Of a stretch of DNA of 64,000 nt, positions 19,121 to 44,145 are shown in pieces; the first letter of the stretch is position 1, and each line of letters opens with the position of its first letter. The stretch comes from Membranipora membranacea (taxonomy: Eukaryota > Bryozoa > Gymnolaemata > Cheilostomatida > Membraniporidae): the NCBI GenBank assembly GCA_914767715.1, contig OU612073.1, positions 21,576,001 through 21,640,000 on the forward strand. The letters run 5' to 3'. The notes under the pieces are model-generated. The model did no database searches, was not told where the DNA came from, and saw nothing but the letters and a program-made list of their open reading frames with translations. Position numbers and translations under genes: made by a program.

Positions 19121-22100
19121 TCACACACTTGAGCTGTCATTGTCGGCATCTTTGTCGGGGCGAGCTTTTTTACTTGAAGTTGTCTCATCTGTGCTGGAAG
19201 CAATCTCAGAGCTAGGGGAACGTCTCTTTGTTTTACGAGTTACAGTAAACTTCATTGAGCAACGAGTGATCTGAAAATGTTCAAAAAAAACTTAGGGTAA
19301 AAGTTGAAGCAAAAATATCGCAATGAAGTTGTGTGTTTTATTTAAAAACCTACTTGCCATGAATACCAGATCTTTTTACATTGGGATGGTGGTTAAGCCC
19401 ATTCCACACAGCCCTTTTTTCTGGTTCAGGGTTAATCATAGGTTCCATGCCCCTGAATAAATGATTCATCATGCCAAAGCCTTGATGTGTAATGTCTGTC
19501 TTCTCAAATTATGCATTACCGCATGATAAATTGTGTTTGTACATACCTCCATCAAACCAGGGTTAAAAAGTCCTGATGACGTTAGGCTAGTCCTGGAGCC
19601 CTGAGAGCTTACACCCTGGGATCCAACTCTCTGTGAGGGTGGTGATTTACTACCCTGACTGTCGGGCAGTGTGACAGTTTCTCGGGCTGCAGGCATTAGA
19701 GATACGACAGATGAAGCGGAGCCATCTCGAGAAGGCAGCGGGTTCACAGCTAGTCTGTAGCCCTTTAAACTGTTCCAGATCTGTGTGACTGTCGGCTTTG
19801 TTAACTTCATGTTTTCCAGATCCTAATCAACATACAAATCTACTGTGTTAATAAGAGCTTGGACTTTTGAAATAGGCTATAATGTTACACAGTGATGATG
19901 ATGTCATACTATGGAGTCCTGACATATTATTGGGGTAGTTTTGTTGCAATTGCAACTGTTTAGATCAAGTGTCACCCAATTTGCATTTTTATTTGGGGAG
20001 CAACATGGCATGCAGAGATATCCCAATCTTGTTGTCTGGTTGATTTATTTCCGATTGGTGTTACCTTAGTGAACCAACGGCATAACATGTTTATGTGTAG
20101 GCTCAAATTTAGCTCTCAAAATCGGGATGCTTTGACTGCATTTCAGGGCTTTATCAGGTACTTATTGAGCAGCTCTACAGAGAAGTCACAGTCTGTCTTC
20201 TTACCATGATAGTGAAATTTTGTTCTGACTTAAGTTGATCCATAGAGTGTATTCCGGCAGAGTGGAAATCATCTATATAGGCCCCGAGTCCAAGTGTCCT
20301 TAACCAGCTGTAAGACAAAAAACAATATTCTAGATACATGAGTGCACAGTAACAATGTCTCGAGATAACTTTGCAAGATCATGCAGGAACAGGATGTCAT
20401 CTTAAAATGCCAACTGAATTTATAATTCATGCCAGCTCATTATTGGTTCATGTGTCATCCGCTTATGGCATGCTGGGATACACAAGTTTGGTTTTGACCC
20501 CTTGATTTTACAGCCATTGGCATTACGCTATATGACTGACTGTGACAAGTAGCCAAGGGCCTGTTGGACATGTAGCAAAAACTCAACAAGTTGGGCATAT
20601 CAAGAATGTATCAAACATGTTTACTAGTGTAGCCTGAACAACAGGCATCAAGCAGTACAGCCATATTCTGATGTTGGAAATACAAATCAAATATCTAGGA
20701 CCAATCAGTATTACTTAATGTTGAAGCAGCATGGGAAAAGTTTGAGCATACTAAAGTTCTTACTCAGCAACAGAAGGTGAAGCGGGTGGTGGTGTAGGCC
20801 CCGCAGCACTATCAGTCATATCCGTCCCTCGATTGGTGCTGTCGATTAAGTCAGACTTAGGCTGTCTGGAGAACGGTCCGACGGAGGAGAATGTAAATCC
20901 TGACGAGATCCTGGGCAGGGGCTGATGCTGCTGCTGTAGAGGCTGATGTTGAGAGAACTGTAAGGGCTGACGCTGACTGTGGATCTGAGGCTGCTGAGGT
21001 AGCTGCTGAGGCTGCTGGGTATTAGCTCTGTGCTGGTGTTGAGCACTATAATAACAAACATAAGAAGGTAAGAACTAGTGCACTCATTAGGTTATCCTCT
21101 CCTAAACCCACCTCATCAACCTTCCACTCGGCTCAAAACCAGGGCTGGACTGAAGCAATGTACAACAAATCTAACACTTGCACATCAACTGATAGTTCAA
21201 GAAGCATAAGCAGCATTGCATGGATAGCCAAAAGAGGGGATGTACAAGTCAGTATGATTTAGAAGTGGATCGGCCGCTGGGTATTTAGCAGACACATGAG
21301 TGGCATTATGAGGTGATGAGTTAGGTTTATCTGGAGAGTAGAGAGTAAACCAGGCGAGCAAGAGAATGATGTGAAGAAGCCGCGGTAGTTGCAGAATCCT
21401 GACGACGACATAGCCATAGATAGCTGGTCACATGACTATCATGTGACCAACATTGCGCCTCGCAGACGTCAGTCATCTTCTGCCAGGCTTGAGACGCAAG
21501 ACAGAATCCTGACTGAGTCTGCTGGGGGTTACACTTGACTGTCTGTGTTTTATAGTAGTTCACACTCAGTCAGTCATCTTCCGTCGCAAATTTTGCTTGC
21601 AGAAAACACTCATGTATGTTTTAAAAATTTGGGACTTTGACTTGAGTTTAAAATTAACCAATCAGAAAACTATATTGTACAGAGTGTAATCTGCAGCATG
21701 TGGGCGACAGACAGGTTTAGTCAGAGGCCTTAACACAGTCTTAGACTGAGGAACACCGATCTTCCTCTAATTAGACTGATGTTGGCCCCCGGTCGACCTC
21801 TCGTAAGTCTGACCAGTCTGGTCCTGACTTGTCGCCGCGTCTCGCACATCTTTGTGTTATCTTATAGAATTTTTGTGTGACCACTTTTCATTCCACTAAT
21901 TGATGATTTAGTTTCATACCTTGATTGTGAGCTACAGCGCTACTAAAGTTCTGAAATTTTACTGATACCTGATATCCAAATCTTATCTGATATGCTGAGA
22001 GTTGCAGAACTAATAATTTCTACTCCAGCATGTTCAACAGCAGTGAAATATATCGTTCAGTTCAAATGCTTTTTATAAGTCTAAATATGCCAATCTATGT

Positions 22101-25100
22101 AGATAAATTTCTTGCTACATAATAAAGTAAAAGGTAAAGTACAAAATATAGATTCTAAACCAGTCTTAAAGAATGTTATAAAATGTGGGGAATAATTTTT
22201 TTGGTGGTTTTTTGGGGACTGTTAGTGTAAAAATATGGATTAGAGTTACTGGAGTAGTCAACTGAGTTTTTGCAGCAGTACTTTTGGATTACGGCTCTAA
22301 AAGTGAGACTATAGATAAGTTTGACAGAAGACTGAGATCAAACCGAGTTGACTCAGACTTGGTGTATGCTCGCCATGATGCAGAGTAACTAACTGAGATT
22401 ATTCTGTTATTCTGAGTGAGTGCCTGTATAGTGTGCGTATGTATGTATGTATGTACATGTAATATGGAGTACGTATATGTACTGATCCGGTTAAGCCGCC
22501 CATTTTTTAGGCGGGCCAGTGTGATTCCGGATCAGGAGTACTCCTCTCATTTTTCACAGGTGACGCTGTCGTCGACGATACATTGTTCATAGTCTCGCCG
22601 GTATTGTCACTAAAACATTCAGGCAGACAAAACTTATTCAGTCCCTTATACTGACAAGTCTTTGTCCTTCCCTAAAGCCTTTTCTTCTCTGATTCAGAAT
22701 TACTCTGTTCAATTGGTTCATCGAATGCAAACAGGAAATTCAAGGTAGGCTTCCTCACTTCAAGGTAGAAAACCTTATTTGCAATGGAATATTTGCAGTT
22801 CTAAGGATTAACATCCTAATATATGGCCGGAATGGTGTGTAAATTGTGCTGAAATGTGCTAAATGTGACAGTCAAGTGGTCAAGGAAATCCATAGATGTA
22901 TAAAGGCACTGTAAGTACACGCTGTCAAGCTTTGTAACTATACATTCATGATTATGGCGAGAGAGAGACAATCACTTACAAATCAATACGAGGACTAAAA
23001 CATGTCATTCCATACTGCGGGTCAGATTCCACACAGGCTATGAATTCACATTTATACGGAAGGGAGGGTTCAATCCCCATGTAGGGAGTTTGCAGTAACA
23101 TTGATTGACAAAACAGAGAGGAGATGAATCAAGTCTACTGAAGTCAAAGCTAAAAGGAAAAAGTGTTAGCAAATAAAGGTGCGGCAGCAAATACATATGG
23201 GGGACAGGGAGTCAAGGACATTATATCTGCAAATGGGTTAGCTTCGGAGAGTTAGGTAACATTACAAAGGAGGATTACAAGTTGTTGAGAATGCGGAAGC
23301 CGTACATTTCAAACTAAGACACCATTCACATCATAATATGTAAATAATAGGTCAATGATAGTGTTTGACAATAATATGAATAAGGCTTGTAGAAAGGGGG
23401 GGGGGGTAGGGGTAGAGGGGTATAGACATATACATACTCGTTCTGGCGTCTCTGCTGTACGTATCTATCACGTTCACCATGAGGTACGAGCTGTTCTGTC
23501 ATCTCTAGTGAATCTCTGATACGAGATAAGAGCTCGTAATTCTTCTTTCCTCTCACAGTCAGAGAGAATGTCTCACACGATGAATCATTCCGAGAGCGCT
23601 TCGATACAGCATACATCTCACGTTCACAAGCTGCAATCACCAACAAATTAGTAAGCGTCATGAGAGAAATTCAGCAAGCTGTAGTTTTTACATGGACGCT
23701 GTTGAACAAAACAGAGGAAAAAGTATTCAGGTACTTTTTTCCTAATGTGACAGTTCAATTTACGTGGAAAAAAGCAGTTATTATATAAGGTATAAAGGTA
23801 TAAATACTTCCTGGATGACCAGAAGGGAAAATTTCTGAGACTACACATAAAGTTTAGTCCGAAGTGTTATGAATCAGTTCAGTGTAAAAATATTACATAA
23901 CTACTTTCCAGATTATATATTGGGCATATTGCATTGGTCTTTTGGAAGGCTTTAACTCAGACTGGCTATCTCAATAACTCTATTAAAAATAAACAATGAG
24001 AAATGAATCGTTTCATCTGTAACTACCACCCCGATATGTTGTTTAGTTACCTGTATGATTGAGAGGCGTCGCAGGCTCGGTCTTATTAGTTTGTGAGTGA
24101 GTGGGACCGCTAGTAGACACGGGAGTGTTACTAGCTGAACTGTGGCCTGCTTGACTGGTCGTACTGGCAGGCGTTGTAGGTGTGGAGGCAGCAGTTGATG
24201 TATTCATTTTTTTCTCATCAGATTTACGATCTCTTCCTGGGCAGGCACATATCCGCAAGTCTACACACAATCTACCTAACACCTGGGCATTAGCGCTGCA
24301 ATACATGAGATCAGGCATATTACACATCTAATACAAAAGGAAGCATAGCATTGCTGTTGATAAAAATCATTCCTACTTACTAACATACAAATTAAGTACA
24401 GCGCAATTAGGTATAATTTACAAAAATTACACAAGCCAAAACCACATTATAGTTTTCAATTCTTTTCTGATCATAATAATCTTTATGATCTTTATTTTTT
24501 GGAAGATTATCTATGGTTAAATCAAGGAAACGGAGACTCCAATCATTTAGTTAGACTTACTCCTCAAGAGTGAAGATTATGGACATTTCTCTCCTGTTAG
24601 GTCCGCCTACACAGGAGTTGAGGCACTTGAATGAGAAGAGATAAGTGACCCATTCAGTACCAGCTGGTGGAGTGTCATACGGCATCACGGCAGCGTATCG
24701 GCCGGTCTGTTGGTCCTGTACATAGCTGGCACCCTGATTCTCACACCATATAAAGTGCTCGCGGTGAGGTATATTAGCTGGAGAAAGGATGGTAATGTTA
24801 TCATTTGAACAAGTTTACCTCATAAAAGTACTCTAACTAAACTGTGCTTACAATGTTTGTCGATCAAGATTTTGGTAGTTATGATGGTGCGTGACACGGC
24901 AAACATAACAGCACATATAATAATGGTAAAATTTGTTCCTCTAGTTAGAGATTGCGCAACGTTGATTAAATTTTGTGAAGTAATGTCAGAATTAGTCACT
25001 GAGTTTAGCAGCTCACCACTTTCAGGAGATTGTGAGTGGTAGGGGCATCGTTTGACTACATCAGACAGGTGTTCTGGTCGGCTGTATACCGGTAGAGCTC

Positions 25101-28100
25101 TGATAAACAGGCCATTAGCCACACCATCACATGCAATACTGAACCTGACGGGTACCATAGCGTCTTTCTGAGCGTACAGCTTGTTCATACCAGGTGAAAA
25201 CTACAGGATGTAGAAGAAAATTGAATTCTATTAAAATCATATTCACCATCAGAAGAGTCTCAAGGAGGTTGCCGCAAAAACCAACACCAAAATATAACAG
25301 GACGTTCCATTTGTGCAAAGGGATACCCATAGACATTTCAACTTATAAATGAGTATTTATATGTTTATGGGAATACCAGACCACTACACAATCCATAATA
25401 ACTCACTGTCCAAGCAGTCGCTTTAGTATCCTTCGTCTGTTTTCCAATGTCTAACTTAAAGTTGTAGCCTCCTGTGTAATGTGTACTGGAAAAAAGAAGG
25501 CAAGTCTTAACGAAGATGGTGAAGACTGTGATCAGTTTCATACTGGTGTCTGGTATGGCACTGACTAAGGATAGATGCTGATATGAGTGAGGAGATACAA
25601 ATAGCTCTATAATTTTTGACATCATCAACTGCAAACGTTTAGCTATTTTAAAGAATTTTGAGCTTCCGAAAATATTTGGAGCTACTATAGTAAACTCTGA
25701 TGTTCACTCGTATTGGGTCAATATAAGCTGTTACTGCTGATGTCATCATTTTGAAGCAGTTTTGACAGCAATATCAACATCACACTCGCTGTTATTGTAA
25801 ACAATAAGTAAAGTAGTTGAATCAAGACTATGGTGAGGCTTACTTGGAGGGTATTGCAGACATCGGGCTAGGTGACATTGAAGGCGGGGGAGGATGCATG
25901 ACTCCTGCACCACTGTCTGTGAAATTCATCTGAGCTGGGTTTAAGTGAGGCTCTGGAACTTGTCCCGAATAGTTTGTGAACTGAAAAAAAACAATCATAT
26001 TATCGATTAACTATTACACAAAAATGTAAATAATTTATTTATGATGTTGGTGGCCTATTTTGAGCCAGTGGCAAACTGATATTTGTCATATGGCTATGCA
26101 AGATGTTTGGTCCAACAATTTGGTCAATATTGTAATGAAGCCTCTTCTAGTGTGTCTTTTTCAAAGCTTCAATGACGTTTTAAAAAGCGTGTAAACTTGT
26201 ACCCTCTTAAACAGAACTTATCTAGCGCCCGTTTCAACCAACACCAAAACCAAAAATGGCCACGCTGCACGCTCTCAGCGGCGATCACCAACCCTAAGTC
26301 GGCACATGCTCGAGCAAGTTTGTGACAAAATTTTGACATAGTTTAATTTGTGGTATGAAATAAACCAATCATATTACAACTGTTGATGAAACATCGGAGG
26401 CTGTTTGGGCAGGCCCAGAGAACAAAGCAGTGAAGAGAGGCCAATATCCTATCAAGTCTTATCAATTACCATTCACATAAAGTAAACAGCCTTTGTAATG
26501 GTCTACCTTGAATAGAGTTACTCATCAATGCTATTTCATATACATTATTATGTATTTCGCAATTTCTCTAGACTGTGTTATAAAATGAAATTGCGCCATA
26601 CACTTCCATTTTACATTTTCAGGGGAGTAAATGTTAGCTTATGTTTAGTTCAGCTAGTTGAGTAGTCGAGGGGGGATGACTTGACGTTAGCCACCACTAA
26701 GTTTAGGGCAGCTGAAGGGGGAGTTTATATAGAGTAAAAAGGCTGAGTAAATGCTTGCTATTTCAAGCATGTGCATACAGCGAATTTTTCTTCTTGCGAA
26801 TCTTACTCCTCTATGGTACTAAATTACATAAAATGGTAAAATTTCTTTTCTCCCACAACCTCGTACATGTGAACTATTTTCCATTTTCGCTTGTGGCGAG
26901 AAACCTGACTTTGTCCAGTCAATTTGGAGCTATGAAATGCACCACTGGGGGTTGGACCCAAAAGGTTAGTTTTAGAAATTTCATGGTTAAAATATGATTA
27001 TGAGAATATATAATGCACAATATGCTGACTGACAACTATGCAATAAATGATGCACGCATCATCAGTATATCATACAAAAAGAGAAACTGAATACGAAATA
27101 ATCCAGACACTGTTACTGCAGACAAGCAGTCGGACCTCATGGAGTTGTTTAGTGCCTGATATGTAAACATGATGTAATATCCATCGTCTAAAATAAGATC
27201 TGAATATGAGCGATGTGACTGTAGTAGAATGTAAAGCCGAACCTACCCCAGTAGAGTTGGGAATCTGTTGAGAGTTCTTTCCTTCACACATGATAGAATA
27301 AGATTAAACAAATAAATAATATCACAGCTGATAGAGCACCAAGTTACCACCCTCACAAACGGGAGAGAATCAGAATACAGCACAACTAGATGGAATGGAA
27401 TATAGAGCACAAATGAAATCAATCCTGTCAAGCTCTGAACAATACAACATTCAAATACCATAAATAATCAACGGGCAAACATAGGCAGGTTCAATGACAG
27501 CGAATAACGCTGGCATGTTTGGACATGACTGAGCATAACCTGGTAATGTTGAATTAGCCAATCAGAGCGCAACATGTCACATGACAAAACTGAACATGCT
27601 CGGGCAGGATAGCGGCATGACATACAGCCTATTTTTCCTGCTTAGTGATTATAGAATTGATTGCTTAACATTAATACCAAGGGAGGAATGTGAAGCAATG
27701 ATATCAGCTGGAGCTGTGATATGGTCTGATCACTGAATTAGATTCTTCTCTTAGAATGGAAATAGTATCATAGCGTTATACGGTTAGGACACTAAACACA
27801 GGGACCCATCTGACTGTTATCTGATTGGCTGTCCCTAGTAGCATGAATAATTAGCCTGAGAAATTGTCTTGTTTACAAAATTGCAAACAGTAATTATACC
27901 CCATACAGTGCCGATGATTAGGGCATTTCTAGATTGCTACTGGGGACTGGCTATTTTTGCAAGCCCTTTGTTTTGCAAAAGAAAGCTAATGATGCTATTC
28001 CAGATATGGAATTCAATGGGTCTGATATAATGAGATATCCTGCAGCAGTATAAAGATACTGGTTAGTGATGTCAGAGGCTAGCGGCCTGTAGTGATCTGT

Positions 28101-31100
28101 CCAAACATGCCCAAACTACAAAACTGTGCTAACAAGTCTACAGTAACTAGATACTGGTAACTCCGGATGTTTCAGGGATGGTAGCAATGATTTCAGTCAG
28201 GAATGTGAGTTACGCTGCAGACTAATTTGATTTTTTAATTTGGTGGGATGTTTGCATAATAACATGCTCTGCAGAGTGAAATAATAAATAGCTGATAGAA
28301 AACCAGCTTCCGTTGCAAAATAAAGCAGTGTTGCAACACAAGTAAAAGTTCACTGTGTATGTATGTGTACCTTCTGAAAATAATCTAAAATCAAATATAG
28401 TTCAGCATACACATGCAGTGCTGCATTTGAATCAATCAACTAGCTTATTCCTAAAAGTTTACTATTTCTTTATTTTTTGGGACGTTTCTGTATGAATAAC
28501 AATCATTCAGGAAATCACTTGTGATAAAATAGTCTACCCACTGTGCAGGATTTGCTTGGATTTTTCCTCTCATTACTTCTACATTAATCTTACTTCATAT
28601 AGCCTAGGGTCCAATAATACACATTGTATGACCTTTTGTCAATGTCGTGAATGACCGCCCTTATTCAAAATGAAAGAAATTCTGGCTGACATTTTCTTCA
28701 CTACTTGGCAGTGAATATCTCTGCTCATGGGTATTTCCCAAACATGAGGCTACTTTTCCCAGAGTCTGACTGGAATACTCTCATACCTGGAGCAATATAG
28801 TAGGTGGCATGAATAGAAATCAATAGATATTGCAGTTTTAGTGCTCCCCTTGATTAACTTATAACACTCAAGAGCAGACAACTCCAGCAAAATCCTGCAT
28901 TGTTCTCAGACTTTTTCCCCTCCGGGGGGCCGTCGGACAGGGGGCAAAGTCTGGGGGGCTCAGACAAGTGATAAAACTATTTCTAATAATTTATACGAGT
29001 AGGAAATTTTTATATAGCAAGTTTCAAATGTTGAAGATATGAACATTTTATCATTAAGGCTGTTGCAAATTATTAATTGGTTGGCATCACTACTGACGGC
29101 TTACCCAAAAAAATAAATCAACTTATCGAGCATGGTGTTACGTGAAAATAAAATTTTGGCAAAATTTTCATTCTGGTAATTTAACTTCGAATGTGCCCTC
29201 AAATAATATAAACAATCAATAAACCTCACTTGTTGCATGCATTGGTGTGCTGCCAGTGCTCTTACTCTACAAATGTGCTCTAATATAATATATATCTTGT
29301 AATAAATGTGTTCTAATACATGCCGGAATTGCCCTAAATATTCATCCTAAAATCTTCTAAAACTATGATGGAAATAGATTGTTGTGCAAAAAAGGACCAC
29401 AGCAAACATTTTATATGCAGCTTGTACTCTGGCAAAGGATCCCAAGCTGCTGCTCCTCATAAGTTTTTTTATTTGGAGTTACGTGTTCATGCAAATGAAG
29501 AAAGTGGTATGATGTGACAAATTAATTGTCATTTCCACATTTCATTCATCAGGAAATATACTGGGTGTATTCCAAGACTTCGTCCAAGTTTTGCATCGAT
29601 AAAGGTTGGACATACATAGATAAACTTTTTTTGGTATTTCCAAAAATTTCTATTATATTATTTTATTATATAATAGTTTACATGGAGAAATATGAAATAT
29701 AATATTTTTATTTTTTCAATATCAACTATAAAATATTTCAATTTAACCCTCAGATACGAGAAGACATATTTTTTGCTTTCAAATATATTGCTTACAAAAT
29801 ATAAAACCTCAGATTTACGTCAACAATCCTTAGCCTATAGCATAGTTACACAGCAAATGTTTCAACTGAAAATTTCCAGTAAAATAATATCAAATATCTT
29901 TTAAGAAGGAATGGGACAGTGTTGAAGTTTGCCCAAAATAGATTTTATAATTCTAGTCGAGGCCAGAAGTTGTGTTCTTGTCATAAAAAAGAAGTCTTCT
30001 AGGAGGATTTAACTTACTTACTGGATACAAAATTGCCGGCAGGTTAGATATAATATAATACAATATGACTCATTATTAGAAGCAGATCTGACAAATATGA
30101 TTTGTAATTTTACTATGAAATCCAGATTCATACATTCCCAATAATATGATTCATCAACACTCAACAGTCATGAAAATATTGCCCGGCATGTATATCAAAA
30201 CAACAAAACATCTGGGTTGAACTCTACGGAACAGTGAGTGACAAATCAATACAAGATGGCGGTCAGAAACACTGAACCAAGAAGATGTGAAATTACCAAA
30301 TTTACCTATCTTTTTCTAAGCATGAAGCAACACGTCAGAGCCTAAACCAACCTACATAAAAGGACCACTCAAAATAAGAAGAGTAAAATCCGCTATCTTA
30401 TATGAATAATTTTATTGAACTCCTTTTACTCACGTACCTTGGCACATTGGATATATATATATATAATTGGACACCGTGCCACTCCCAAACCAGGGTTATC
30501 AACATCATACTATACCACATTCCAAACAAATTCAGCGAAAGAATACACACCCGGATGAAATTGATCAGAGACAGTCAGAAACAGAAATTGACTTAGCTGC
30601 CATTAGGCTAGCTCATCGGGTGTGAATTCTGAGACAGCAGTCGGAACACAACAGAGGATAAATCAAAACCTGACAAATTTTAACACGTTTTATCATATAA
30701 ATATCAGCAAACAACGAAAAATGAGAAGAAATATCAACAACCAGAAACACTGAAACAAACTTACAGTAAACACCGTCTGTTGAGTATTAGGCGAGGTGTT
30801 CTGTTGTTGTACTGATTGTAGGTTGAACTGATAGGCTTGTTGTTCTGATGTGACAGGTGAGCACTCCTGCTGACTTCCTATATACATATCAGTGTGCTGC
30901 TGCTCATTGCCCAAGTAGTAGCTCATATCAAACATTTGCAAGCTGAATACAGGCAATCGAGCAGAAATTAAGTAGATGAAAACTCTCTATTGGTAGCTGA
31001 CGGAAATCAGCACTGTGTACAACAAAGTCTTACGAGCAAATGATGAAATTTGTGATCATAAATTTGCAAGTCCAGACTTGTCCAAAACAACTGGATCCAT

Positions 31101-33025
31101 CACCATAGAAAAGGATTACTCATCATTTCGCAACATTTGGGCATGCCTAGACATGTTTCTTTCATAGGTGTGCACTACGGTCGATAATAACGCATCATTC
31201 ATAAGTCCCGCCCATTTATCAGATAATCAATCATCTTCCTTGTGCTTGTCTAAACTTGTTCATGTGTGACAGCTACGAAATAAAGGCACCTGTTGGTATA
31301 GTCATCCTGCATGCAAGTTCATACCCTAGCAGTGTAAGTATTTGCCGACAGACAGCCTAATATAGTGATATCAGTAGCTTGTTGACAACTAGTGATGTAA
31401 GCCTTAGAACAACTGTTGAAACTCTGGCAACCATCCAATGATCACAACAAAATTCTGAAATTGACATTATGTACAAATTATCTAGCACAAAGATATCAGA
31501 TCAGCACTGTTTGCAACATCGTTCTCGAAAATATAAACTGAATGTGAATTCAAACACTGGCAAAATAACGCAGTGGGTAGGCCAATATGCAAACTGAGTT
31601 GCAGTCATATTATTCAGAGAGAGTCAAGAGGCCAAGTATTCAAAATAAGATTGAGGGACACAAGAAAGGCAGACAAAAACTCACAATACTATTTTCAGAA
31701 GAAGAAAAGTCGCCTAGGTGGTGTCTGGGTGTTGTATTATGTTTCAGGAAAGCTAACCACTTTGTTGACCTCTTTTTTTCACTCTGCTCATGCCGAGAGT
31801 TGACCCACTGTACCAATAGTAAAAAATATCTGGAGCGTATTTCTGTTAGTGTGCTTTACCAACCCTAGAGATTTGGCTAGCGAGGGTGTGTTTTTACTCA
31901 GACCAAGTTGTATTTTCATGCGTAAGACTAATGATACTCTTACCATAGGAGTAGTGGGTATGATGAACTGATGCTGTGACAGCAGACCCTGTGACTGTAG
32001 AGATGACAGTCCTAGACTAGATTGCTGACTCTGCTGTGACATGTTCTGCTGACTTTGCTGTGACAGGAGAGTTGTAGGTATGAGTGTATCTATAGAGATC
32101 TCACATCTGGTAATTGTGTCCTCTCCACTCGTCTCGTATGTGTATGTAGGTTGGTGCTCAATTATTTTAGTGTACGTCCTGACAGATAAATGAATATTAA
32201 TGTACATTTATTATGAAAAGGCATACGGATGCAAAGTGATACGAAAAGCCAACATGGTTCTAACTTGAGCATTTGAGCCAATACTTGGTATGGGCACACA
32301 GTTGTTTTGATCCATATCTGACCCTGGTGGTTAATAGTTGTGCAGCTGTACCAGGCGGACTATGGGAACTGGAAAAACTAATAACTAATATTTGACAAAG
32401 TGACATTGCCCTTCAGGCGTATGATGTAATTCTAACAATGTCCGAATTTCAGTTGGCTATTTTTGGTCACTAGCGAGAGAGATGTGGTGATGTTTGATAT
32501 GAGGACTGCCTCATTAGCCATACACTATGTTTCCATATGTCGATGTCACATCGATTTGAGGGCTTATCGATACATGGGGATAGTATTTAGGTTAACTCAT
32601 GTTTGCATTGGTTCGCGTTTGTTCATTTGAATTGAGGCACAGCATTCAAACAAATTGGCAACATAGATGAATGGATAGCCACAAAGACTGCAACGCGGAT
32701 GGCCCGGGCCGCCCGGAGTTCTTTATCATTATGGAAATCCTAAGCATTATTCATTCAATTCGGGAGTGGACAACTCATTCGAAGCATTGGACCATAGTGC
32801 CTGTGTGAGCCCTCACCATAGACAAAGGACATAGCGTGTCTTCTCTATGGCGCTCACATTTAAATTGACTAGATTTAAATGTACTTACTCTCCGCCAGGC
32901 TCCTGTTTCAGTGTGTTGAATAGATGTGCGTAAGTATCCTGACTAAGCAGTTTGAGTGAGTCGTCAGCGTCACTATACTCATGCTGCTGCTGTGGGTTCT
33001 GTGAGTAAGAGGCCGAGGCAGCCAT
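19121..33025 (-). CDS. p53/p63/p73-family transcription factor with SAM domain (TA form)
   Basis: TA-form exons on the minus strand: 33025-32889, 32178-31944, 25980-25844, 25485-25407, 25200-25017, 24777-24561, 24295-24051, 23630-23438, 21045-20764, 20307-20205, 19822-19547 and 19270-19121, total 2238 nt, 745 aa, all phases consistent. Order of parts: acidic/hydrophobic activation motif [12 protein letters not shown] with LKQE after it; Gln-rich linker; DNA-binding domain about 170-355 ([13 protein letters not shown] to [11 protein letters not shown]); tetramerization core about 430-460 ([20 protein letters not shown]); Gln/Pro-rich linker; SAM domain about 570-630; basic Ser-rich tail. Zinc ligands equivalent to human C176, H179, C238 and C242 are present, as are R175, G245, R248, R249, R273 and R282. 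The cysteines equivalent to C135 and C141 are replaced ([12 protein letters not shown]). Architecture and best matches resemble p63/p73 rather than p53. Head-to-head with WRAP73. Confidence 0.95.
26730..26818. repeat. Dispersed repeat, copy A
   Basis: Shares diverged blocks with 45400-45513: AGTAAATG, GCTATTT..AGCATGTGCA, CAAAC/CGAATTTTTC..CTTGC, and CT.TATGGTA in the same order. It lies in a p53-family intron. Confidence 0.5.
28921..28965. repeat. Short GC-rich dispersed element, copy 2
   Basis: Near-identical to 305-350. Here the preceding bases (CAGACTTTTTCCCC) are partly complementary to the element's GGGGGCAAAGTCTG, so this copy could form a hairpin; copy 1 has a weaker version. Confidence 0.75.
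30765..30935 (-). CDS. Alternative, deltaN-like first coding exon of the p53-family gene
   Basis: An ORF starting at ATG 30935 ([20 protein letters not shown]) runs to a strong donor (ACT|GTAAGT) at 30765 in phase 0, so it can join the phase-0 exon at 25980 that carries the residues before the DNA-binding domain. It is Gln/Ser-rich and lacks the activation motif. Exon 2 (ends 31944) also finishes in phase 0, and joining exon 2 to the possible acceptor at 30942 would break the frame by one base. The exon therefore fits as an alternative start rather than an internal exon. The resulting protein would be 678 aa. The CAG before 30942 could accept an upstream non-coding exon. Vertebrate deltaNp63/p73 likewise start from an internal exon (established); transcription from here is inferred. 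Confidence 0.7.
31139..31158. promoter_or_regulatory. Perfect p53-family response element
   Basis: GGGCATGCCT AGACATGTTT: two decamers, each matching RRRCWWGYYY at all ten positions, with no spacer. It lies in the p53-family gene itself, about 203 bp upstream of ATG 30935. By base-probability arithmetic (equal base frequencies) a perfect spacerless 20-mer is expected about once per 17 Mb, so chance in this window is well under 1%. Binding is inferred. Confidence 0.75.
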
Positions 33026-33874
33026 ACTTCTATATATTTACTGTAACTCTCAAGCTGCTGGTGAATAAGAGAGAGAACAAGATCAACCCAGAGCCAAAGA
33101 AAGCAGTATCATTCATGTATGGCTTGTCCAATCATGCTCACAATGCCCTAAGTAAAAAAAGGCCAGTTTCAGCTTGAACTTGAGAATCATTTTATATATA
33201 GAGATACGATATAAATTATAATTATCCTGATTTTTACCAAGGTTGACTCACCCTAACAGCTAGAGACGTTATTGCAATATAATATTCAATAGTAGCCAGT
33301 TGAGTCTTAAAATAGTCTGAGTCTCACATTAGTGTACAGTTAATATATATTTATATCTAATATGTATATACATACATATGTGTTTATTTATATATTTGTG
33401 TTTGCAGAATTACCTATAAAAATAACAGGAGACAGGGATTAGCCCAAAACTGGACCTCTAATGATGATAAATCCATTTTCAATCGATCATTCGCTCAGAC
33501 ACAACCAGATTTGCACCGAAATAATTGTTGTAGAGCAGAAAAAAATTTTAGCTGGCAATTCAACACACCGTGCTGCGGTGTTGATTGCGGTGTGAGACAA
33601 AATTATCACGATGTAGCATGAATTATAATAGTGGTGAGTGGTGACCTTTTTGCGGTGATAACTACACAGGGTAAGGATATACTTACTCTGTGATAACTAC
33701 CTGCATAGACCTGAACTAAAACACAGCGACTAGAAAGAGAGCTGTCCATTACTGATCAAGGAAGTCAAGTAGAAGCTATGAGATGGCCTGTGACACTGGA
33801 GAAAATCCATCAATATTAGAGCCCATATATTTTAGCATACAAAGAACATGATTTGTATTTGTTGAACCCTGAAA

Positions 33875-33970
33875 ATGGCAGAGCTGAGTGATTTAAAGTA
33901 TTTACGGAGCATATGTGACCCTGATGTGCTGGGGAAAGTTCTCTTCTCTGCGCTTGGGCCTACATATCAG
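33875..33970 (+). CDS. Candidate orphan first exon in the divergent promoter
   Basis: ATG at 33875 opens 32 codons (begins MAELSDLKYLRSICDP, ends ALGPTYQ) running into CAG|GTGTGT at 33970 in phase 0. Composition looks protein-like. It does not match the start of WRAP73, whose conserved N-terminus begins at 36547, and the two cannot be joined in frame at the visible acceptor. No later exon was found. It may be a separate short gene, an alternative 5' exon or chance. Confidence 0.3.
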
Positions 33971-34522
33971 GTGTGTTAAACGCTGTATAACCATGCCCCC
34001 TTTCCACCAAGAGATTGGTTGTTCGACCAAGGTCTGATAGAATTGGTGTATTAAACAAAGTTATAGGAATTTAAATCACTATATATCCTTTAAATCAAGA
34101 TATACCCACCAAGTTCATTCAAGCAATATCTAGAGCATTGGTGTTCAATTACATGGGCAAATGAGGTGGAAGCGAACAGGTTGGGTTTGACCATGGTTGG
34201 CTTTTTTGTTGAGTTTAACTCATGGACTCAACTTTCTTACCCGATTTATTCCGAATAGATGCAATTACAAAACTGACCCAAAACAAAATCCAATAAAAAA
34301 TCTTATCTATATATATACTGTTTCGCTGGTGTTCAAGGGGAAAACTTATGAGAGAATTGTAACCACAGATCCAGAGCACAACCATGCATCAGAACCTTCC
34401 ATCCTATATACATCCCATATAGGCATAAATACATGGTGTTATTATGAACAAAACCAAAAAGCAAGAAAAAGTCAATTATTGTTGTTAATATTTTGGTACA
34501 CATTTTCAATAGTTTATTGGAA

Positions 34523-34555
34523 CAATGAACTCCCTCTAGAAGAGGGAGTTCATTG
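34523..34555. repeat. Perfect 15-bp-arm hairpin
   Basis: CAATGAACTCCCTCT, spacer AGA, then its exact reverse complement. ATTGGAACAA flanks it on both sides as a direct repeat, reminiscent of an insertion-site duplication. Confidence 0.85.
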
Positions 34556-35404
34556 ATTGGAACAAAACCAGCTGGCCGTTGAACAAAAAGTTCAGGACAA
34601 CCCTCGGTGCAAGCCATAAAGCATTTACGGCTAAGAGTTGTATTTCAAGATAGATATATGTTAGATTTGGGTTCACAGTGACTGATTCTTCAATATAATA
34701 ACATTTTACTTTGCTCTCAGTGGAAACTGTGTGAAAATTGAGCCAAGTATATTGCCTGTTTTACAGAGTGCCTCTCATTTGCTAACTTGTGATTTTTGAC
34801 AACTTTTATTGTATGTTTCAATAACAAAAATTTGAATTTACCTTTTTCCTAACATTTGCCTACTTCATTGTACAGTACAGTGTAACGTACAGTTCATAGT
34901 CTGTCGTGTCAGCCCAAGGTGTAAAAGTAAAGTGCCCTTTACTCTGCGGTCAAACCGATGAACTCCCTTTAATTGGTCAAGCAGACCAAGCATTATTATC
35001 GTAATGTGAACCTACAACTAGTTGATATATATACATCTTACACATCGATGCACATCCTATTTTGATTTTTGGGCCTGCTGGCTTGTATGAGTTGATACAA
35101 CTAGTTACCTAACCTTCATCGCGAGCAGCATAACACTCGTACAAAGCCATGTTAATGCATGTCGCAAGAACTATCTTGAGCCCCTCCCTACCCTAGACGG
35201 AACTATCCTGTCCAGTCCTTATTATCTGCATACTATAATTGAAAAGCTTAGCCCTTCACAAAACTGTGTAGGAGCACCACAAGGCAGGTTTCAAGTTCAA
35301 TTCTTGCGGTTCCAGTGGTCTATTTTTTTTTTAACTTTTATTTGCTATTCAATGCCCTTTCGGGCCAATGAGAATATGCTTACATAAGATTCATCACATC
35401 TATT

Positions 35405-35565
35405 TAGCGCACTCCTGTACAAGGTAGGAGTGGGCAAGCTAGGCTATTGTTCGGAAATCTCACCTCCTTTAGCAGAATGGGAAGTGACCGGAATTCGAGC
35501 CTGCAACTCTCAGATCGAGAAGCCCGAATCCTAACCACTACGCCACCATTTCTGGTCAACCGAGG
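35405..35565 (-). mobile_element. tRNA-derived SINE between the p53-family gene and WRAP73
   Basis: The minus strand reads GTGGCGTAGTGGTTAGGATT (A-box region) and, about 35 bp on, GGCTCGAATTCC (B-box-like), followed by a tail ending in an inverted repeat (CACTCCTAC..GTAGGAGTG type). The tRNA-like part resembles a class with the arm GGGCTTCTCGATCTGAG, but it lacks a convincing acceptor stem, so it is called a SINE and not a functional tRNA. Confidence 0.75.
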
Positions 35566-36546
35566 AACTTGACTACGGGACTTGTACAAACTACAGAAGG
35601 CTTGAAATGAGTGTGTACACACACACATATATATGTATTTGCCTGTTGGTTCAGTTGTTTTTTTTATATCCATTACATCAGATTAGTAGACATCCAGCCT
35701 GATGTTGCTGAGCTATACTACTATAGTTACTATAGCCTACTTATTAATCATTGTACAGTACAATTGATTAGTGCAGTAGCATCCAGACAGACAACCATCT
35801 CAGGTCGTGCTCTGTGCATATCTGCATCTACTTCTTTCTAGCAAAGTTTATCATGATTGAAATGAGTGGTGAGTTGAGTGGCTGATAGATAGATATATAT
35901 ATATATATAAATAAATAAGACTCAAAAGGATGGAGCTATGCAATTGAATTAATGAGTACCAAACTGCAGTGACTCACCGTTATGAAATAGCAAAAATCCC
36001 TAAGACCATTGACTCATTAGTTGGCCTGCTTCTCTGTGGCTTCCTTTAATCAGTTTCATTCATTTGACAGTGCTCTTGCCGCCTCTTGCTCTTGTTACTT
36101 TCTTCTTCTCCACAAGGTTACTTGTCTGGACTTGTCTGAACCGGAAATAACCAACACATGGAAATGAGTGGGTGGTGCTAAAAATGTAAACATAGGATCA
36201 TTACACAACATCAGGGAACTTATACTGTTTCTCACATCACTTATAACCACAAGTCTGATTTGACATAAATTAAATACACAACAAATTGCATACAATAAGT
36301 ACTTAATATATTAATGATGGTTCAACTAAGACATAAACCAAATTGTATTTTTAATGAGGAATAATATTGAATTTTAGGGAGTGATTAATTCCAAAGTGAA
36401 ACCAAAGCATCAAAGTGAAACTACATAAAGCTTGTGTTTTCAAAAAAATTATTTTTGCTAAGATTCTTTCAAATGCAACTGCTTACGAACCTTTAGTGGT
36501 GACCTTTTCTTGGATTTCTGCTAGTCTTTGGTCCAACCAAACTGCA

Positions 36547-39500
36547 ATGGACTTCTCAGAGTTGTTCAAACAATCAGGACAGATCTGCTCAATCTCTCCA
36601 AGTGGCAGCTTCTTGGTTAGTAAATAATAGAGTATTCACTTACACAATAATTTTTGTTGTAGCACACAAATTCTTTTCCTTCTTTGTAAATAACTACTGA
36701 GTCCATAGTCCTTGACAGACAGTTTACTAACACTTAAGTGAGTTATTGTGTGACTTTTGACACGGGTTAACTCCTTTCTTTTATTATCTCTGTGTCTGTT
36801 TGACAGCAACAACACCATATTCATTCAAAGAAGACTCCTTGGTTATACCAACAAATCTCTCCATTGCCACACAAAAGATTGTCTGCACCACATATTGTTT
36901 GCCTGATGGAAATAACCAACATGTATTTTCACCTTGCATAATTTCAGTACTCTTTTCTTCTCAGGCCAATGCCGTGCAGTACAAACTGATCGTCAGAGAT
37001 TTTAGCACACTACAGATTGTGAATCTATTCACTAATCTTGACGCTATCCAGGCTATCGAGGTGAGGCAGTCAGTAACACTATGTAAACAAAGTACCTGAA
37101 GACAGAGCACTTTTAATCCTTGTTAATGCCCTTAAGTGTTGAAGGAAACCCTAAAATATGCCAGGATATGATTGAAAAGCCTTGCATTTAGCCTAACTAT
37201 ATGACAATCATATCATCCCTGCTATCAAAGACTGTTAAGTTGTGCTAGAAGCACACTAATCAAGTTATCAGAGGATGAAAATTGGAAATATTTTTGATCA
37301 TTTACTGCAAATTATTTCTAAATAATGCCTGATTTTCCGACCAAATAACTTGTTGTGAGTGTCTCTCAGGTAACAGACACTGAAATGACTAGTCCTCAGT
37401 AGGACTGATTACTCCATCGATTGACTGAAGTCAATGTCTGCTAACTTCAATTTCTTGTCCGAGTGTTTTTATGTATGCCCCAAAGTTGTATTCTACTCCG
37501 GTTCTCAGAAAAAATAAAAGTAACTCCTCAATTTTGTTGCAGTGGTCATCGGATTCCCAGTTTATTATGTGTGTTATGAAGAAAAGAGGGCTCATACAGG
37601 TGAGATTCTATCAACGGCCATAAGCCTTTCATTTATCATGAACATGTCCATATGTTTAAAATGCGGCATTATGGCTTGTTCTTATCTAAACACAGTCACG
37701 TTTATAATCCCTTTCATTTTGGACAAATAGTCAAAACTACATTGTATAACAGATTGCAGTTTGACTTTTAGCTCAGTAAATTTAAAAAAAAGAAAGGTCT
37801 CAGTTCCTGATGCTGAGGGTGAGAACCAACAGATTTTTGGAGAGTTTTGTGCCACAGAGTATAAAGATTCTTGATAGTATTAAATGACAGAGCCTTGTAT
37901 CCACAGTACGTTGTAATTTGTCTTTGACAAAATACCAAAATCTATCTATGATTATATGATCACACCTATCGATGATGGTTTGTAGGTTTGGTCTCTAGAA
38001 GAGCCTGACTGGACATGTAAGATAGATGAAGGCTCAGCTGGTCTCCACTCAGCTCGATGGAGTCCCGATGGTCGACATATACTCACTACCTCACAGTTCC
38101 ATGTGAGTAGCTTTGCTGACAACTACCTGTATAATACTCTCATGGAAACATATCCTATTTTGCATTCATTTCACGTTGACGCCACACATAAATTATCTCC
38201 ACCATGACTCAAACAGACATTAAATATACAATAGGAGAAAGAGAATTGTATCTTTAATAACCAAATATTATAAGTTTGTCATGTACATATGCTTTTATAT
38301 TGATGGAAATGGTAAGACAGCTTTAGTCAACTAACTGGTGACTGTTTGAGTTCCCCTAAATCACTGTTAGCATGTCAGCTACTGACCGGCTCGTGCTAAA
38401 ATGTTTTGATCAGAAGTGTCCTGAAAAGCTCTGACTATCCACTAACCTAATCTATATCACAGAAAAAAGTTCGCTCATTCTGTATTGTAGTTACGGATGA
38501 CTGTGTGGTCGTTAGTGGATAAAAGTGTATCATATATAAAATATCCAAAAGACTGTCAACATGGCGTAGATTTCTCTCACAATGGTAAATACATGGCGCT
38601 CGCTGAACGTCGAGACTGTAAAGACTGTATCAGTGTCTTCACATGCAGCTCATGGCAACTTCTCAAGGTGAGTAAGATTATCTGTACCGTAGTATCCTAT
38701 CCAGTCTCAATAAATAGCCATCAAGTCCTATCTTAAATTAATATTTAGGAAGTGGATCTGGAACTAAATTGACAGATTCTCTCCACTCTTTAGTTTTCCA
38801 CAGCTAGAGCTGTCTTGAGTCGTGAGACCAGGGAGGCTGGGACAGCCCAAACTCCCTGGTGGGACGCCTTGACTGTTTCTTGTAGTTATTTTCTCATAGA
38901 ACCGATATAGTCATGGGGATGCAACTTCAAGGTCATTTAGGCACTTGTATCTAGCCTGGAAGCAGGGAGTCTGTCCCAAACTCTCTGAGTGGTGTTGCTT
39001 TCATGAAGCCATGATTGATCCAACCTATAATAATATATATTATAGCATTTTGAAGTGGATACCGATGACTTAGCAGGCGTGCGATGGTCCCCTGATGGTG
39101 AGGTGTTGTGCGTGTGGGAGTCTAGCCTATGTTATAAAGTTTTGCTATATTCATTGGATGGTCGATTGATATCCACTTACAGTGCCTATGAACATGCTCT
39201 GGGTATAAAGAGCTTATGCTGGTCACCATCTGGTCAGTTTCTTGGAGTAGGAAGCTATGATCAAAAGGTATGTAATGTGGATGAGAGATATTGTAGTTGA
39301 TGCGCTCATACTGTGCCGAGAACGCTACCACCAGCAATCCCACCACAATGCTTACACTAGTGATCTTGTGGTTGTGGTGCATCTACACATCAATCATTGT
39401 ACATCAAATAGTATTGTTGACTGGTAGACTCTAGCTCTCACTTATGTTTGGACAGTCCCAAACCTCCTTAAACAAATAAAGTCAAGCAAGGCTGCAGCTC

Positions 39501-42500
39501 CAGTCTTTAAAAACTGAAACTAGAGCAGCCTCTATTGACATCGTTTTGCTCACAAATGCTATATAACCTAAAATTGCACACTTTTTTTTGTGTAGCTGAG
39601 GATTCTTAATCACATGACCTGGCGGTGTGTAACGGCATTCCACCACCCCTCCCGTGTTGAACGAAAGAAGAAGCTCATAGTCTACAGTGAGAAAGAGGAG
39701 ATAACTCAAGCTCACACCGATGAAAGATATCCAGATGGACCTTTCTTCAATACCATGTCTAAATGTGAGTTAGTCATATAGAATCTCATAGAGTCTCATA
39801 GAATCTCATAAAGTCTCATAGAGTATATAACATCTCTATGGTTAGTCTTTTTCATTGGCTTATAGCTGTCAGCAAGCGGACTTTTCATGTAAATGGTGTC
39901 AACATATAAACACTACTAATCTCAAGTTATTCTTAGTAGACACCTGGATCATGACGAACAAGTCAAATATAGTTATTCTGAATCATCAGCCTATCAGGTG
40001 TGATATTGGAGATACAATACGTCATAGCTCTTTTTGAAAGATCTTCTACATTATATTTCTTGTCTGGGAATAGGTACTAAGCTGACCACCTTTGATAAGG
40101 GATTTGGTAAGCAAGTACACTGAATAAAATACAGAAAAGCACATGATGTGGGTCAGGCCAGCAGACGATACCGATCTCACAAAGGAAGTTTTTATATAAG
40201 TATAGCTGGCTAAGAAGAGAATGACGCATCTCATTATAAGTTATGTTAGGTTTGGGTTATAAAACTTTTCTATACCCAAGCTGATTGAAGTGATGATGAA
40301 TATGTTTTATTATGTAGATGATTTATGTCGAGATGATACAGTTAGCCTCACTGATGTTAAGCCAGATGCTAAGAAGGCCAATCCAAAAGTCGGGCCTAGT
40401 CAGATCGCCTTCAGTCCTGATAACAGATTCATCTACTCTAGAAACGGTAATATACAGTGTATATGGTGTATACTAGACCAAGTATGGTACGGTAATATAC
40501 AGTGTATATGGTGTATGTTAGACCGAGTATGGAACGGTAATATACAGTGTATATGGTGTATGTTAGACCGAGTATGGTACGGTAATATACAGAGTATATG
40601 GTGTATGTTAGACTGAGTATGGTACGGTAATATACAGTGTATATGGTGTATGTTAGACCGAGTATGGTACGGTAATATACAGTGTATATGGTGTGTGTTA
40701 GACTGAGTATGGTACGGTAATATACAGTGTATATGGTGTATGTTAGACCGAGTATGGTACGGTAATATACAGTGTATATGGTGTATGTTAGATCGAGTAT
40801 GGTACGGTAATATACAGTGTATATGGTGTATGTTAGACCGAGTATGGTACGGTAATATACAGTGTATATGGTGTATGTTAGACCGAGTATGGTACGGTAA
40901 TATACAGTGTATATGGTGTATGTTAGACCGAGTATGGTACGGTAATATACAGTGTATATGGTGTATGTTAGACCGAGTATGGTACGGTAATATACAGTGT
41001 ATATGGTGTGTGTTAGACTGAGTATGGTACGGTAATATACAGTGTATATGGTGTATGTTAGACCGAGTATGGTACGGTAATATACAGTGTATATGGTGTA
41101 TGTTAGACCGAGTATGGTACGGTAATATACAGTGTATATGGTGTATGTTAGACCGAGTATGGTACGGTAGTATACAGTGTATATGGTGTATGTTAGACCG
41201 AGTATGGTACGGTAATATACAGTGTATATGGTGTATGTTAGACTGAGTATGGTACGGTAATATACAGTGTATATGGTGTATGTTAGACCGAGTATGGTAC
41301 GGTAATATACAGTGTATATGGTGTATGTTAGACCGAGTATGGTACGGTAATATACAGTGTATATGGTGTATACTAGACCGAGTATGGTACGGTAATATAC
41401 AGAGTATATGGTGTATGTTAGACCGAGTATGGTACGGTAATATACAGTGTATATGGTGTGTGTTAGACTGAGTATGGTACGGTAATATACAGTGTATATG
41501 GTGTATGTTAGACTGAGTATGGTACGGTAATATACAGTGTATATGGTGTATACTAGACCGAGTATGGTACGGTAATATACAGTGTATATGGTGTATGTTA
41601 GACCGAGTATGGTACGGTAATATACAGTGTATATGGTGTATGTTAGACCGAGTATGGTACGGTAATATACAGTGTATATGGTGTATGTTAGACCGAGTAT
41701 GGTACGGTAATATACAGTGTATATAGTGTATGTTAGACCGAGTATGGTACGGTAATATACAGTGTATATGGTGTGTGTTAGACTGAGTATGGTACGGTAA
41801 TATACAGAGTATATGGTGTATGTTAGACTGAGTATGGTACGGTAATATACAGTGTATATGGTGTATACTAGACCGAGTATGGTACGGTAATATACAGTGT
41901 ATATGGTGTATGTTAGACTGAGTATGGTACGGTAATATACAGTGTATATGGTGTATGTTAGACTGAGTATGGTACGGTAATATACAGTGTATATGGTGTA
42001 TGTTAGACGGAGTATGGTACGGTAATATACAGTGTATATGGTGTATGTTAGACCGAGTATGGTACGGTAATATACAGTGTATATGGTGTATGTTAGACGG
42101 AGTATGGTACTGTAATATACAGTGTATATGGTGTATGTTAGACCGAGTATGGTACGGTAATATACAGTGTATATGGTGTGTGTTAGACTGAGTATGGTAC
42201 GGTAATATACAGTGTATATGGTGTATGTTAGACCGAGTATGGTACGGTAATATACAGTGTATATGGTGTATGTTAGACTGAGTATGGTACGGTAATATAC
42301 AGTGTATATGGTGTATTTTAGACCGAGTATGGTACGGTAATATACAGTGTATATGGTGTATACTAGACCAAGTATGGTACGGTATTATACAGTGTATATG
42401 GTGTATGTTAGACCGAGTATGGTACGGTAATATACAGTGTATATGGTGTGTGTTAGACTGAGTATGGTACGGTAATATACAGTGTATATGGTGTATGTTA

Positions 42501-44145
42501 GACTGAGTATGGTACGGTAATATACAGTGTATATGGTGTATGTTAGACCGAGTATGGTACGGTAATATACAGTGTATATGGTGTGTGTTAGACCGAGTAT
42601 GGTACGGTAATATACAGTGTATATGGTGTGTGTTAGACTGAGTATGGTACGGTAATATACAGTGTATATGGTGTATACTAGACCGAGTATGGTACGGTAA
42701 TATACAGTGTATATGGTGTATGTTAGACTGAGTATGGTCCAGTTTGTCTGCATTCAGAATTTCTACCCCTCACTGCTCCAAACCGGCTGAACTGGATCTA
42801 ATTTGATCTTGGTGTGCTTGTGCTTGTTGTCTATCAATGACTCTACGTTGCGTTTAAAGTAGAAGACAACACTGGCACCACTAAATACATATCAAAATGC
42901 AATTAACCTTCACCAGTAGGCAATATACTCAACAATAGAAATCCAAGGTATAAACTTTGGATCTGCACCACAGGACAGTCAGTAGCCCCTCCACCACTAA
43001 GTTTCTATTTGTAGACAACATACCGAATGCGTTATGGATTTGGGATATAGAAAATATTCGACAGACATCTCTACTAATTAACCTGTCACCGATAAAATGT
43101 GAGTAGCCAGTTTATCTCAAGCTTATGTGAAAATAGAGCATCAACACGCTACATAAAAGCAGCTCTTCTCAGATACCTTATTTTTCATGCAAGCAACGCT
43201 TATTTAAGACACTGCTACCTTTAAATTTTGTGATATCAATTTCTTTGATGTCCATTAAGTTACAGCATAGGCTCAACTAGATTTGAGCTATGTGGCCAAG
43301 CTGCAAATCTAACTAGTTTTTATTAAAATAATGAATTAGAAGTTATCTGTACATTTATGAAGAGGGCATAACCCTAAGATTAGGTGCATTGTTGATGGTT
43401 TCTTGCTTTTATGTGAAGTGTCCTGATGATTTCCGATGGCTGACAGATGGTTTAATAATTTACAGGTGTAAGGTGGGACCCTACACAGTCTAGATTAGCT
43501 TTCTGTACTGGTAATAGAAAAGTATACATGTGGTCGCCCTCAGGTGCCTTGGTGGTGGAGATTCCTATGGATAGTAAGTTTTAATAATGATTAATACTTA
43601 GCCGCAACTAATGGTTGCAAATCATCTCATCAATTTATTTTTTGTTGATGCAAATAATTTCCATTGATCAGAACAGAAGTTACATTGGAAGATGTATAAT
43701 TCCCCCTGCTGTAACGGTGACAAGATACTGTTATTCACACACTCCATTTCTTATGTACAGACATGATGGAAGGTATTGGTTAGCTTGCTTCGGTTTATCT
43801 CTGTTTACAGTCATCTAAGCTGTTGATGTAGCCAGGGAGTTAGAGTCTCTAACTCCTTGATGTAGGACACCATTGATATACCCAACTCACCACTTGTCGT
43901 TGTCTATGTAAATTTAAATGTCAATTTTTTATTTGGCTGTATTTGAATGACCGGTTTTGTACAATGGATATGACACATGAATACATTACATGTAAGTTAT
44001 GTGTGATTTCATGCATTAATTCATAAGTTGTTATTTTTTTGTTACAGCTGATTTTAATGTGACTTCACTAGAATGGCACAGGGACGGTAAGTCCCTACTA
44101 CTGATGGGTAAGGATGATATGTGCATCTGCTACCTACAGGAGTAA
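36547..44145 (+). CDS. WRAP73: WRAP73 (WDR8), WD-repeat protein
   Basis: Eleven plus-strand exons: 36547-36615, 36965-37060, 37543-37599, 37986-38102, 38491-38667, 39046-39267, 39596-39764, 40318-40446, 43015-43098, 43466-43573 and 44048-44145, total 1326 nt, 441 aa, close to the human length of about 460. All phases agree. The start MDFSELFK matches the family N-terminus; upstream in-frame codons are not conserved. Diagnostic blocks: [81 protein letters not shown] and [14 protein letters not shown]. In vertebrates the protein acts at centriolar satellites and spindle poles with SSX2IP (established). The intron after 40446 is filled by a minisatellite. Polyadenylation signals at 44904 and about 45100 are possible. 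It is divergent from the p53-family gene and convergent with LSG1. Confidence 0.95.
39781..39820. repeat. 10-bp tandem repeat in a WRAP73 intron
   Basis: Four units of GAATCTCATA with A/G variation at two positions, beginning 17 bp after the donor of the exon ending at 39764. Confidence 0.85.
40446..42738. repeat. 45-bp minisatellite, about 51 copies, starting at a WRAP73 splice donor
   Basis: Unit length is 45 bp, starting GGTAATATACAGTGTATATG and containing GTTAGACCGAGTATGGTAC. Variants recur: ACC or ACT before GAG, GTATG or GTGTG, TGTTA or TACTA. The GTGTG form is nearly always followed by ACTGAG, showing linked variants. The first unit begins with the last exonic base (40446), so the true donor is also the first unit's GGTAATAT and each later unit repeats that donor sequence. 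Units are 15 codons long, so several frames on both strands remain open over long stretches. Those ORFs are artefacts of the repeat. The far end leaves the array at about 42738, 276 bp before the next exon. Confidence 0.97.

Follow-up and report, generated by a model that had tools for sequence, protein, structure and literature searches.

A cluster of p53-type sites upstream of a candidate deltaN start exon in a p53-family gene of the bryozoan Membranipora membranacea

Autoregulation through a deltaN promoter has been described for vertebrate TP73 and TP53 (PMC9264937, PMC3191818, PMC5187841): in both genes the P2 promoter responds to activation by the transactivating (TA) forms (PMC3191818, PMC5187841), and the internal promoter of TP53 (P2), which yields delta133p53, carries p53 response elements (PMC9264937). 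Human deltaN'p73 is a P1 product containing the extra exon 3' (PMC3191818). In this study, a stretch of 64,000 nt from Membranipora membranacea (assembly GCA_914767715.1, contig OU612073.1, positions 21,576,001-21,640,000 of the forward strand; hereafter the window) was analyzed, whose minus strand holds a complete p53-family gene model of 12 exons with GT-AG borders (19121-33025). Three p53-type sites at 31064-31261 lie just upstream of an exon, here called X (30765-30935, minus strand), that could act as the first coding exon in a deltaN form. On balance, we favor the view that the protein encoded by the gene itself binds 31064-31261 as a cis-regulatory element, a self-regulated deltaN start being the likeliest role of this element.

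Among invertebrates, sponges are reported to have no p53-family gene and cnidarians have neither the transactivation domain (TAD) nor the SAM domain (PMC5543598), and molluscs possess the TAD, DNA-binding, oligomerisation and SAM domains (PMC4803236). In shrimp, the TAD-less isoform LvDeltaNp53 has been attributed to an internal promoter, with Drosophila p53 cited alongside (PMC5374463); neither "response element" nor "autoregulat" occurs in the main text of that report. Feedback in vertebrates and deltaN forms in invertebrates are each known, and a narrow literature search on autoregulation revealed neither a p53 element in a deltaN promoter of an invertebrate nor an invertebrate case joining the two. 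DeltaN forms of p63/p73 are known in molluscs.

The bryozoan locus resembles vertebrate TP73 in having a p53-type site ahead of an internal exon that may act as a start, in the joining of that exon to a common exon in phase 0, in the DNA-binding, tetramer and SAM domains of the encoded protein, and in the head-to-head position of WRAP73 next door. It differs in that the deltaN exon comprises 57 codons, against about 13 in TP73, that the p53-type sites are dispersed over 10 kb of the gene, and that X could also stand in for exon 2 in frame. The likeness is one of sequence, and an alignment of exons 1-3 to TAp63 and TAp73 gave no clear correspondence at the place of the intron. With TP53 P2 the locus shares a candidate internal promoter with p53-type elements, whereas P2 lies in intron 4 of TP53 and the delta133p53 truncation reaches into the DNA-binding domain. 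The TAD-less isoform predicted here has counterparts in shrimp LvDeltaNp53, Drosophila p53 and molluscan p63/p73.

p53-type sites upstream of exon X

The window was searched with the consensus RRRCWWGYYYRRRCWWGYYY, sites being spacer-free with at most two mismatches unless stated otherwise. As the original prediction had held, GGGCATGCCTAGACATGTTT at 31139-31158 agrees with the full p53 consensus at all 20 positions with no spacer, and 203 bases separate it from the ATG of exon X at 30935. Both of its cores are CATG, and it was the sole match without mismatch in the 64 kb even when spacers of 0-13 were permitted. Beyond that prediction, the perfect site was found to have two companions within 200 bp, namely GTGCTTGTCTAAACTTGTTC at 31242-31261 (1 mismatch) and TTGCAAGTCCAGACTTGTCC at 31064-31083 (2 mismatches, one half perfect); the three spacer-free sites lie about 130-330 bases upstream of the X ATG. 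Further sites were located at 26302-26321 (1 mismatch), within the intron that separates X from exon 3, at 33120-33139 (2 mismatches), which precedes the TA ATG by 94 bases, and at 36118-36137 (2 mismatches), in the interval separating the p53-family gene from a WRAP73 orthologue, 409 bases before the ATG of the latter. At 27511-27540, three half-sites stand in tandem, of which the first two together make a site with CATG cores and 2 mismatches; a second, looser group of half-sites in the large intron (27473-27611) takes in this tandem. All eight spacer-free sites of the window fall within 25956-36137 and so belong to the p53-family gene or its immediate surroundings, although the one at 25956 is best set aside because it is inside coding exon 3.

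The cluster upstream of X is strongly non-random. In the 500 bp upstream of the X ATG, 1, 2 and 3 sites were observed at 0, at most 1 and at most 2 mismatches, and these counts were equaled in none of 5000 dinucleotide shuffles; likewise, three sites within 200 bp occurred anywhere in none of 300 simulated 64-kb windows, a control that does not depend on the choice of a region. Between exon 3 and the WRAP73 ATG (25981-36546, bounds that follow gene features but were chosen once the sites had been seen), seven sites were counted against a mean of 0.30 in dinucleotide shuffles, of which none of 500 reached seven (maximum 4), and the window outside these bounds, with a minisatellite at 40444-42738 excluded, contained only the exon 3 site. 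When 319 permuted motifs of equal degeneracy were run with the minisatellite masked, a single one matched the real motif in each of the three-site cluster, the count at no more than 1 mismatch, and the count in 25.9-36.2 kb, and two each matched it in the number of perfect sites and in the count at no more than 2 mismatches. The sole permuted motif combining cluster, perfect site and count was WGYYYRRRCW, a shifted register of the same motif. With up to 3 mismatches, the whole window held 29 sites versus 15.7 expected, a number equaled by 1 of 100 shuffles. An origin of the sites in chance or local composition was thus rejected by the simulated windows, the permuted motifs and the dinucleotide shuffles, and a tandem or dispersed repeat was rejected as well, since no reported repeat of at least 24 nt in 25900-36600 overlaps the cluster; a Tandem Repeats Finder run over 25000-45000 showed no array there.

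The encoded protein and the two candidate N-termini

The assignment to the p53 family, already made in the original prediction, was upheld by Pfam matches of the 678-aa deltaN protein to P53 (E 2.9e-59), P53_tetramer (35.5 bits) and SAM_2 (28.2 bits), all of them over their cut-offs. Among the best 60 of 110 matches in the PDB, the top one was 7pc6, labeled only "DNA-binding domain", followed by TP63, p73 and p53 chains. In the alignment to TP63 the encoded protein retains the CPxH, SC and NRR motifs, which include zinc and DNA-contact residues. Because its DNA-contact motifs match those of TP63, the encoded protein is predicted to read the usual p53-type consensus and should bind it.

All exons of the model lie on the minus strand. 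TA exon 1, counted from its ATG (32889-33025, 137 nt), ends in phase 2 and encodes a transactivation-domain-like segment; exon 2 (31944-32178, 235 nt, phase 2 to 0) is Q/S-rich; and the common exon 3 (25844-25980), which ends in AIPSN, can be joined in phase 0 to either exon 2 or X. Exons 4-7 (25485-25407, 25200-25017, 24777-24561 and 24295-24051) encode the p53 DNA-binding domain, exon 8 (23438-23630) the tetramerisation domain, and exons 9-12 (21045-20764, 20307-20205, 19822-19547 and 19270-19121) the SAM domain, with the stop codon at 19123-19121. Summed exon lengths gave 2238 nt in frame for the TA model (745 aa), the total that had been predicted, and 2037 nt in frame for the deltaN model (678 aa). 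A candidate alternative last exon at 22507-22609, in frame after exon 8, would give a 509-aa protein without the SAM domain, and read-through of exon 8 would give 512 aa; no AATAAA or ATTAAA was present on the minus strand between this candidate exon and 20049, which counts against it. An Rfam search over 19000-45000 gave no match at gathering scores, and a search for relatives with the exon 6 peptide had 23 and 5 pattern matches in genome and viral contigs, respectively, none of them confirmed.

To compare the N-termini, human TAp63, p53 and TAp73 transactivation stretches served as references and 2000 shuffles were made for each. The score of exon 1 was reached by 11 shuffles against TAp63 and 33 against p53, and its likeness to TAp73 was weaker (176 of 2000). 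X is unlike these segments, its scores being reached by 1959, 1441 and 1529 of the 2000 shuffles for TAp63, p53 and TAp73, respectively. Against solved structures in the PDB, the TA N-terminus had a single match, to an unrelated protein (E 1), and X had none.

Exon X itself (171 nt, 57 codons from its ATG) is very probably a real coding exon, because its in-frame codon-usage score was unequaled among 340 equally long stretches outside exons and free of stop codons on the minus strand of 19-36.3 kb (stretches that overlap one another and are hence not 340 independent ones) and because its donor GTAAGTTT, scoring 5.8, lies in the range of the gene's own donors (4.8 to 9.0). The codon score, 0.31 bits per codon, is similar to that of the gene's own exons. 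X joins exon 3 in frame, and the statement that X and exon 2 both end in phase 0 and can both join 25980 was borne out by exon borders and frames. At the sequence level, X could serve as an alternative first coding exon that bypasses the putative transactivation segment and joins the common exon in frame.

A proposed internal start, possible splicing into X and other candidate roles of the sites

A self-regulated deltaN start is held to be the likeliest role of 31064-31261 because the cluster lies just upstream of a deltaN-type exon and because the internal promoters of TP53 and TP73 are activated by TA forms. In the mechanism we propose, the perfect site would form the core of the self-bound element, the element would drive transcripts starting in or just before X, and these transcripts would yield a deltaN protein without the putative transactivation segment of exon 1. 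With its DNA-binding and tetramer domains retained, such a product could dampen the TA form, much like its counterpart in TP73. The sites, their clustering, the exon with its frames and the protein domains are established from the sequence, whereas the binding, the transcription start at X and the feedback are inferred.

Several observations weigh against this proposal. No TATAA-type box was found between 30935 and 31158, the only similar sequences being TTTAT at 31284 and 31062, and there was no CpG peak in the same interval. Perfect half-sites were no more than mildly frequent over the whole window (23 versus 17.3, standard deviation 4.3), and in 25981-36546 their number, 9 versus 3.1, was also the maximum among 500 shuffles. 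According to a review, no analogous feedback loop had been described for p63 (PMC3191818). Finally, a candidate AG acceptor at 30944-30943, a feature absent from the original prediction, stands 7 nt before the X ATG and allows splicing into X; the intervening bases (30936-30942, minus strand) make X a 178-nt exon read from 30942, in phase 2 to 0, matching the phases of exon 2. Because this acceptor lets exon 1 splice to X, splicing rather than an internal promoter could explain X.

The strongest rival accordingly takes X as an internal exon used alternatively in transcripts that begin at the upstream promoter, and the p53-type cluster as an intronic enhancer, a reading that we regard as rather unlikely. 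By one route, exon 1 would splice to 30942 instead of exon 2, giving a TA protein of 726 aa with a different linker; by the other, a non-coding exon would splice to 30942, giving a deltaN protein by splicing. Exon 1, X and exon 3 without exon 2 do form an open frame of 2181 nt, divisible by three, exon 2 and X being of equal phase class with the frame open in either version. The original prediction had argued that the TA total is divisible by three only if X is left out; this holds when exons 1 and 2 are both combined with X but fails for exon 1, X and exon 3, and the divisibility argument thus does not show an internal promoter. It had also named, as an outcome contradicting an internal start, a further exon, 2 mod 3 in length, that would make X internal; with exon 2 skipped, exon 1 at 137 nt already fits this description. 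When X follows exon 2, in turn, the frame meets a stop at codon 129 and the deltaN ATG then follows, which together with the possible acceptor recalls human deltaN'p73; unlike there, exon 1 to X also stays open here, and the TA protein could use X.

The AG at 30944-30943 is preceded by a pyrimidine-rich stretch, and the acceptor scores 3.9, inside the leave-one-out range for the 11 acceptors of the gene itself (-1.9 to 12.5), but 369 of the 3871 AGs of the minus strand score as high, and phase agreement is expected by chance in one case of three. Upstream donor candidates at 31324 (7.8) and 31033 (5.9), scored on the scale on which the gene's own donors reach 4.8 to 9.0, leave room for a non-coding first exon, and the perfect site could then sit in the first intron. 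An acceptor scoring 6.4, with 33057 as the first exon base, may likewise stand shortly before the ATG of exon 1. The idea that X arose by duplication of exon 2 was rejected, no alignment being obtained at E <= 100, and without detectable similarity to exon 2 an exon duplication is not visible. An internal deltaN start and splicing into X are not mutually exclusive, and TP73 has both. Of the dual-start, self-regulating design as predicted, the coding-like exon able to start a deltaN form and the non-random site cluster stand, whereas the frame argument is incomplete.

That the sites regulate the upstream TA promoter, the head-to-head WRAP73 gene or both, X being incidental to them, appears improbable: sites are indeed also present at 33120, at 36118 and, within introns, at 26302 and 27511, but the tightest and best-matching cluster adjoins X, away from the TA and WRAP73 starts. 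Chance resemblance or import of the sites by a repeat is very hard to credit, for although the consensus is degenerate, with 1-mismatch spaced sites also at 54669 (spacer 6) and 55475 (spacer 8), and although first-order Markov simulations of 64 kb contained a perfect site anywhere in about 1% of cases, the shuffles, simulated windows and repeat screen described above all speak against it.

WRAP73 and the layout of the locus

Human TP73 and WRAP73 are arranged head-to-head. In the window, the matched pieces of a WRAP73 orthologue extend over 36547-44139 on the plus strand, head-to-head with the p53-family gene (19121-33025, minus strand). The orthologue, identified by tblastn with a human probe, starts at the ATG at 36547, and its joined pieces matched a WRAP73-like chain in the PDB (E 2.7e-54). 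The p53-type sites at 33120 and 36118 lie between the TA and WRAP73 start codons. The pair is possibly a very old microsynteny with a shared regulatory region; neither WRAP73 nor WDR8 is mentioned in the main text of PMC5543598.

Inside the WRAP73 gene, the minisatellite at 40444-42738 consists of 51 copies of a 45-bp unit with 96% matches, and its CpG observed/expected ratio is about 1.5 within a CpG-poor window. Across 18001-48000 outside the minisatellite, this ratio is low, about 0.2-0.8 per 500-base step, which may point to a broadly methylated genome. Elsewhere in the window, pieces of a phosphodiesterase-like gene (14248-15888, plus strand; top PDB match 2',5'-phosphodiesterase 12, E 5e-06), an LSG1-like GTPase piece (54878-54997, minus strand) and pieces of a YJU2-like splicing factor (59373-60979, plus strand) were recognized.

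We put forward, tentatively and as somewhat doubtful, the wider proposal that the entire regulatory layout of vertebrate TP73 might already be present in this invertebrate p53-family gene, the layout comprising the intergenic region shared with WRAP73, an upstream TA start, a self-bound internal deltaN start and a spliceable deltaN exon. If an invertebrate gene of the p63/p73 type carries a perfect self-binding site, backed by two more sites within 200 bp, next to an exon of the deltaN type, this would suggest an origin of the loop before the vertebrate duplications. The design of human p73, with its two starts and self-regulation, may thus be very old and, if so, negative feedback by deltaN forms would go back to the ancestor of the family and would not be a refinement made by vertebrates.

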